Positions 822 through 36,787 of a DNA stretch of 42,130 nucleotides are shown one piece after another. The stretch is from an uncultured Clostridia bacterium (GTDB lineage: Bacteria; Bacillota; Clostridia; Christensenellales; UBA3700). Positions within the stretch are counted from its first letter, which is position 1, and each line of letters opens with the position of its first letter. The translations under genes and the position numbers were made by a program. The notes below the pieces were generated by a model. The model saw only the letters and a program-made list of their open reading frames with translations. It made no database searches and was not told where the DNA came from. The stretch spans positions 1-42,130 of the forward strand of contig CAMWQA010000007.1 of the NCBI GenBank assembly GCA_947176265.1. The letters are read 5' to 3'.

Positions 822-951
822 TAAAAACAGCTATTAACAATAGTCGTTTTTAATATCACTTTGCCGTAGGCAAAATATAACTGCCACATAGTGGCAATAT
901 AACTCGCCGTAGGCGAATATCACTTATCTGCAAAGCAATCTTTGCAGATAA
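822..951. repeat. AATATAACT-linked hairpin array, locus 1
   Basis: AAAAAC-hairpin-GTTTTT, aatatcact TTGCCgtaGGCAA, atataact GCCACataGTGGC, aatataact CGCCgtaGGCG, aatatcact TATCTGCAAAgcaatcTTTGCAGATA. Confidence 0.85.
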
Positions 952-17519: not shown

Positions 17520-17534
17520 TAAATTGTCCTTAAC

Positions 17535-17642
17535 CGTCGCAACGCGACGATATAACCCGCCGACAGGCGAATATAACTGCCACGTAGTGGCAATATAACT
17601 CCGACGAGGTCGGAATATAACTTTACCGCGAGGCAAAATATA
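17535..17642. repeat. AATATAACT-linked hairpin array, locus 2
   Basis: CGTCGCaacGCGACG, CGCCgacaGGCG, GCCACgtaGTGGC, CCGACgagGTCGG and a degenerate TTTACCgcgaGGCAAA joined by (a)atataac(t/c). Confidence 0.88.
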
Positions 17643-27895: not shown

Positions 27896-27918
27896 AGATT
27901 TAATAAAATATCCTTAAC

Positions 27919-28029
27919 TAAAATGAGTACACAGACAAGTGTACTCATTTTAATATAACTGTCGCAGAGCGACAATATAACTATTGCATAGCAATAATAT
28001 AACTGCGTGCAAGGCAAGCAATATAACCA
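27919..28029. repeat. AATATAACT-linked hairpin array, locus 3
   Basis: AAAATGAGTACACagacaaGTGTACTCATTTT, GTCGCagaGCGAC, ATTGCataGCAAT, TGCGTGCaagGCAAGCA joined by aatataact. Confidence 0.88.
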
Positions 28030-28057
28030 AAAAAGGAAGGCGTTTGCCTTCCTTTTT
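28028..28057 (-). terminator. Bidirectional-type terminator
   Basis: AAAAAAGGAAGGC-gttt-GCCTTCCTTTTT. Confidence 0.85.
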
Positions 28058-31240: not shown

Positions 31241-31447
31241 AAGTAGGCTGTCACAGAAATGTGGCAGTAAAAGCACCTTAAAAACTAAACAGAGAGAAGG
31301 AATAGCGATAGTAGCTAATAAGAGAAAGTGGAAACACTTGAAAACAAATAAATTAGTAAAAAGCTATTTCAGACAAGAAAAGTATAAGTGTACAGATTAA
31401 ACACGATATGCGAAAAGTCAATTGTTTGAAAGAGTTAGAGATTGAAC

Positions 31448-32952
<1,505 letters not shown>

Positions 32953-36653: not shown

Positions 36654-36659
36654 ATAAAA

Positions 36660-36780
36660 GCAAAATATCTTGCCAAAGACAGCAAGTGCGATTTATCGCT
36701 TAATTTCTTGCCGAGGTAGGGACAACTTTTAAGAGTTTTCACCCTCTATGTCTTTGGCGTAGAGGGTAATTTTATAGGAG
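36660..36780 (+). ncRNA. L10 (rplJ) leader
   Basis: TTGCCGAGGTAGGGAC... directly upstream of rplJ, typical position and motif. Confidence 0.7.
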
Positions 36781-36787
36781 GTAAAAA

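Follow-up and report, generated by a model that had tools for sequence, protein, structure and literature searches.

We conclude that the hairpin array at positions 822-951 of the window, the 42,130-nt stretch of DNA from an uncultured Clostridia bacterium that was analysed as a whole, is probably the cargo-free end of a mobile element associated with S23/IVP proteins. The arrays of this element would be extended by fold-back copying, and the heptamers within them would be recognised by S23. The S23/IVP family (PF05635) consists of the "23S rRNA intervening-sequence" four-helix-bundle proteins. For decades no function has been assigned to these proteins, nor is it settled how the intervening sequences of rRNA move (PMC4990558). 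The arrays offer a first testable clue to S23, with a clade-specific 7-nt motif as the candidate substrate and a target sequence plus its new complement as a concrete candidate reaction product. If this is true, a repeat array that turns its insertion sites into new, perfectly paired hairpins would represent a sequence-making route not known from other elements, and it would explain a large class of short repeats in rumen Clostridia and perhaps the cyanobacterial heptamer repeats.

Constant linkers and variable hairpins

The focal array is made up of five hairpins and four 7-nt linkers with the consensus ATATMAC (M = A or C), all given here on the + strand. It is preceded by an inner boundary, or core, at 810-821 (TTTATCCTATAC), a variant of the array-starting TTATCCNNAAC that was recognised from its sequence and from the recurrence of the motif at other arrays. 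Inverted-repeat and folding analysis placed hairpin 1 at 822-852; it is terminator-shaped (TAAAAA...TTTTTA) and its stem is imperfect. A motif search located the linkers ATATCAC (853-859), ATATAAC (875-881), ATATAAC (897-903) and ATATCAC (917-923), and stem pairing analysis the hairpins between them: hairpin 2 at 860-874 (TTTGCC-GTA-GGCAAA), hairpin 3 at 882-896 (TGCCAC-ATA-GTGGCA) and hairpin 4 at 904-916 (TCGCC-GTA-GGCGA). The outermost hairpin 5 (924-951) is an inverted repeat of 12 perfect pairs, TTATCTGCAAAG-CAAT-CTTTGCAGATAA. The linker had originally been taken as 8-9 nt long, a count that included a flanking A and T; these bases are parts of the neighbouring stems, each of which is closed by a constant T-A pair.

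As originally predicted, the array lies between two convergent genes, and both ORF ends were confirmed. The + strand ORF (462-803) has orthologues in genomes G161 and G155 with no array past the stop codon. The - strand ORF (955-1152) encodes a helix-turn-helix-like protein of 65 aa and has array-free orthologues in G162, G156 and G151; hairpin 5 starts 3 nt past its stop codon. The array may additionally end transcripts of both neighbours. The original idea that the hairpins mark transcript ends covers only part of what was found; it did not extend to the S23/IVP link, the 7-nt unit, the two-sided elements or the outer hairpins derived from the target, all described below. As to the extent of the focal insertion, relatives diverge over a longer stretch, and G162 lacks the whole of 107-958. 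The same part of the window holds a dispersed repeat (108-276) that is present in dozens of copies of ~70-91% identity in the source genome and its genus. Further along are a complete 16S rRNA gene (31444-32951) and a ribosomal protein L10 leader (36655-36781).

The focal array folds far better than shuffled sequence, with z = -8.1 and -9.4 as DNA and z = -7.0 on both strands as RNA, and none of 200 shuffles folded as well. As DNA, the centroid fold consists of five separate hairpins on both strands. As RNA, the - strand retains the five hairpins and the + strand favours an alternative pairing between hairpins 2 and 4. The three arrays of the window gave no Rfam match over the gathering score. 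The second of these arrays (17527-17642, + strand) has the core TCCTTAAC, hairpins and three ATATAAC linkers; it lies between two codirectional genes, at a site where genus members such as G162 carry no array. The third (27911-28057, + strand) combines the core TCCTTAAC, hairpins and ATATAAC linkers with a terminator-like outer hairpin at 28030-28057. AATATMACT occurs 11 times in the window against 1.1 expected, and 10 of the 11 copies fall within the three arrays.

The original prediction had described consecutive palindromes whose stems differ while complementarity is kept, a reversal of CRISPR logic in which the spacer is constant and the palindrome varies. This design holds for the focal array, throughout the source genome and in many relatives. 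A search of the 1.77 Mb draft genome for two linkers in succession (AATATMACT N5-25 AATATMACT) returned 59 matches, compared to 0 for the reversed control, and the spacers are palindromes genome-wide. In 56 distinct units of this genome, 96% of stem cells pair, compared to 53% when arms were re-dealt between units. Neither of the two outcomes named at the outset as counting against the pattern, a lack of further genomic instances or unpaired stems at those instances, was obtained. The loops are dominated by C(RNA)G triloops (R = purine; 36 of 56), and triloops of the form C(GNA)G are known for their exceptional stability in single-stranded DNA. Together, these hint at a DNA hairpin formed on the AATATMACT strand, although RNA is also possible.

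We also considered that the arrays are non-mobile RNA 3'-end devices, such as tandem terminators or exonuclease barriers, that are selected at gene ends and whose stems co-vary because an RNA hairpin is needed. Among the 31 arrays of the source genome with a usable neighbour, the distance from the outer array end to the gene boundary has a median of ~30 bp, and in 20 the nearest boundary is a gene 3' end. The innermost hairpin is often terminator-shaped, as are some outer hairpins. Near-identical hairpins vary more in their loops than in their stems, with 50 of 71 stem differences in the source genome falling in compensatory pairs. These data are consistent with such devices. However, the other 11 of the 31 arrays are located immediately before a gene start, the linkers contain no U-tract, genus members have no arrays at the compared sites, and the same cassette occurs at several sites of one genome. 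Since the association with S23 and the correlation between linker and protein described below are also left unexplained, we regard RNA 3'-end devices as an unlikely account of the arrays.

S23 genes and heptamer linkers

At least one array match was present in 23 of 151 genomes of the order. The two genomes from the source genus in that sample had none, and the S23 gene was likewise absent from the two array-free genomes of the genus that were checked. Among the named matches, true hairpin arrays come mostly from Clostridia MAGs of the ruminant gut, and their distribution across rumen Clostridia is patchy. Matches in Nitrosopumilus, Prevotella, Cytophagales and others proved to be plain tandem repeats with no hairpin arrays and were set aside. 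PF05635 was present in 15 of the 16 genomes classed as array-rich (three or more array matches) and, in the rest of the sampled order, in 25 of 135 genomes (Fisher p = 3e-9); the 16 span many genera, though related genomes are not independent. PF05635 matches exceeded the cut-off in 11 of 16 genomes of one profile search, and the array-rich genome G029 had no S23 match by profile search.

Hairpins repeated in tandem between genes, with one single-stranded motif kept constant, also recall REP palindromes with their GTAG motif (PMC8266576). If the arrays were of the REP/BIME type, their movement would fall to an HUH (Y1) transposase, which cuts next to hairpins. The stems of REP elements are conserved together with GTAG, whereas here the stems vary and the linker is ATATMAC. 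In addition, the transposase family PF01797 is absent from the source genome and from 12 of the 16 array-rich genomes. With 4 of 16 array-rich compared to 6 of 16 array-free genomes carrying it, the Y1 transposase is not enriched and was rejected as a partner. We therefore give very little credence to movement of the arrays by a Y1 transposase.

Several loci are two-sided, with both arrays facing outward in the arrangement [hairpin - GTTATAT]n - terminator-shaped hairpin - GTTANGGATAA - centre - TTATCCNNAAC - terminator-shaped hairpin - [ATATAAC - hairpin]n. The centre is empty or holds either other repeats or an S23 gene. A repeat of the type GTCATTCTGAGCG...GAAGAATCTC, found at 328-413 of the window, recurs between inverted arrays at L033 and beside the arrays L005 and L009. 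Inverted arrays enclose an S23 gene at L036 (in the source genome), L189/L193 and L190, and an S23 gene directly adjoins a two-sided array at L207, L215 and L276. The L193 and L190 proteins match TIGR02436 with 108-111 bits against a cut-off of 24, and the element-encoded S23 proteins have a PDB relative, 2rld. A complete element would consist of a hairpin array, the inner boundary AGTTNNGGATAA, an S23 gene or nothing, TTATCCNNAACT and an inverted hairpin array. Because the sole S23/IVP gene found in the source genome (L036 2030-2335; G000:C1:66515-66816) is frameshifted, the arrays of this genome may be fossils that are no longer mobile.

Where S23 genes are located away from ATATAAC arrays, they are often accompanied by similarly designed arrays built on another linker, for example ATGAAAT, ATATCGC, AATTCAT, ATTTCAC, AGCTAAA or ACATCAC. 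At least five copies of a 7-mer were present in 32 of 46 S23 flanks, most with linkers other than ATATAAC, compared to 178 of 2000 control windows. At ten S23 loci with other linkers, the spacers are 89% paired compared to 31% after re-dealing, with the 89% inflated by the choice of loci and registers for good pairing. Linker similarity tracks the S23 protein tree and not the host: a Mantel test linked it to the similarity of the S23 proteins (r = 0.33; 0 of 1000 shuffles). Sorted into four classes, the linkers require 5 changes on the protein tree, compared to a shuffled mean of 8.8 (minimum 6), and host family requires 11. The four classes were set after the tree was seen, and the Mantel test is independent of them. 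One genome, G077, carries several S23 clades, each with different linkers. L192 is an exception, as its S23 protein belongs to the ATATAAC clade but is accompanied by 18 ACATCAC copies arranged as long tandem units.

At 13 of 48 S23 loci there are tandem repeats whose period is exactly 7, compared to 2 of 480 control windows, with none at lags 4-6 or 9-13. Such repeats also accompany S23 genes on plasmids of Treponema, Bernardetia, Nostoc and Planktothrix, where they are mostly inverted across the gene. Given this exact period across phyla, the 7-nt linker of the focal array is probably the same unit, here spaced by hairpins. On one Planktothrix plasmid (L315), the S23 gene with its heptamer repeats lies between the DISARM gene drmD and an MmeI-type restriction gene.

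These observations are consistent with recognition of the 7-nt linkers by an S23 oligomer. Alternatively, S23 could be a passenger in an element moved by something else, and the correlation between linker and protein would reflect co-inheritance only. Most element copies contain no S23 gene, and no catalytic site is known in S23 proteins, both of which fit a passenger. Nevertheless, S23 is the only gene found between the arrays, and it lies between or beside heptamer repeats across phyla. We consider the passenger role, which overlaps with our preferred explanation, somewhat unlikely.

Outer hairpins and insertion sites

Seven loci of the source genome, other than the focal array, were compared with orthologues from genus members that carry no array at the gene end in question. 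At six of the seven loci, the outermost hairpin has a gene-side arm that coincides with, or reaches, the gene's own 3' end at the stop codon; at the seventh, this arm begins just past the stop codon. These outer hairpins are derived from the target. In one example, the hairpin reads GAGCTAGAATAAGC-CAAAA-GCTTATTCTAGC and the corresponding sequence in G154 is GAACTAGAATAAGCGAATGC. The complement arm measures 10-16 nt, and its longest match in any array-free orthologue is at most 7 nt. At L031, the other end of the element abuts a terminator that is already present in G162. Because the coding arm is constrained, these comparisons indicate that the second arm must have been made to fit the gene-side arm. 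Judged from its products, this suggests fold-back copying, which is a single step for a polymerase; slow selection would need seven repeats of the same outcome.

In the mechanism we propose, the element would insert beside or inside a hairpin-forming site such as a gene end or terminator. The 3' end of the target would fold back on itself and be copied by a host polymerase, and the perfect hairpin made in this way would then be attached to the element at its linker end. Over repeated rounds, arrays of constant linkers and variable stems would build up. We infer this chemistry, and any current mobility of the element, from the sequences of the products; mobility was read from presence/absence and multi-copy patterns.

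In the relative G150, insertions lie in terminator loops. A multi-copy element in this genome ends in contig breaks, and its three left and three right flanks pair up: the joined flanks L172+L176, L170+L173 and L175+L174 each form a terminator hairpin that is split in the loop. The two flanks of each pair come from different contigs and were assigned to each other by the complementarity of their stems. At these three sites there was no consistent target-site duplication. In elements of the G150 type (L207, L124, L171), the 5' hairpin has a loop (AATAGGGATT or GATAGGGATT) complementary to the element 3' end (AATCCCTAT), a match that could close the element ends on each other. In other genomes, S23 elements sit flush after tRNA terminator hairpins (L279, L284, L286, L287 and L288). 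Insertion into a 23S rRNA helix was seen at none of the inspected elements, which lie between protein genes or after tRNA terminators.

Group IIC introns insert beside or inside terminator hairpins, and the sites described here recall them. The element might accordingly move through an RNA intermediate with a reverse transcriptase acting in trans, from a group II intron or a DGR-like system. The source genome has two RVT_1 genes, and PF05635 resembles the DGR protein Avd (PMC10053308). However, RVT_1 is absent from 10 of the 16 array-rich genomes, including the multi-copy genomes G009, G016, G057, G103 and G150, and we consider an RNA intermediate highly unlikely. A reverse transcriptase was rejected as a partner, with RVT_1 present in 6 of 16 array-rich genomes and 4 of 16 controls.

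Relation to known systems

Our search, which covered open-access papers, turned up no account of arrays of this kind; on this basis we do not assert priority. Like CRISPR arrays, they are regular and combine constant and variable parts. In contrast to CRISPR, the variable part is palindromic, the constant part measures only 7 nt, and S23 rather than cas genes adjoins the arrays. With palindromes as spacers and S23 as the gene found between arrays, a CRISPR-like reading was rejected. With REP/BIME/REPIN elements and their TnpA-REP (PMC8266576, PMC3116915) the arrays share tandem intergenic palindromes, a constant single-stranded motif and non-autonomous copies; they differ in the variable stem, the motif and the missing association with a Y1 transposase. 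Like MITEs, the elements are short, cargo-free and bounded by inverted ends, and they are probably derived from a gene-bearing element. In contrast to MITEs, the inverted ends are hairpin arrays and there is no transposase relative. The three G150 sites showed no consistent target duplication.

The short tandem heptamer repeats (STRR) of cyanobacteria are tandem 7-bp repeats, and in Nostoc and Planktothrix S23 genes are flanked by inverted heptamers. The Clostridia heptamers differ in that they are often spaced by hairpins. The open-access papers searched contained no link between STRR and S23.

The 23S rRNA intervening sequences (IVSs) with an S23/IVP ORF occur in Leptospira and Coxiella, and S23-bearing IVSs replace the tetraloops of rRNA helices (PMC4990558). 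They resemble the present elements in the protein family, the sporadic distribution, an unknown mechanism of mobility and a seat in a hairpin loop that lengthens the stem-loop (PMC4990558); the three G150 insertions lie in terminator loops as IVSs lie in rRNA helices. Unlike IVSs, the elements described here are located outside rRNA, reach many copies per genome, are mostly ORF-free and carry variable-hairpin arrays with constant 7-nt linkers. More tentatively, S23/IVP proteins could be the hallmark of a class of mobile elements found across phyla, whose members would recognise repeats of 7 bp and spread into the boundaries of genes and terminators as their hairpin ends are copied by fold-back. 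The intervening sequences of rRNA and the cyanobacterial heptamer repeats might be special cases of this class. In conclusion, S23/IVP genes, rRNA IVSs, REP elements and MITEs have all been described before, and none of these, as defined, accommodates an S23-tied array in which the linkers are constant and the hairpins vary.
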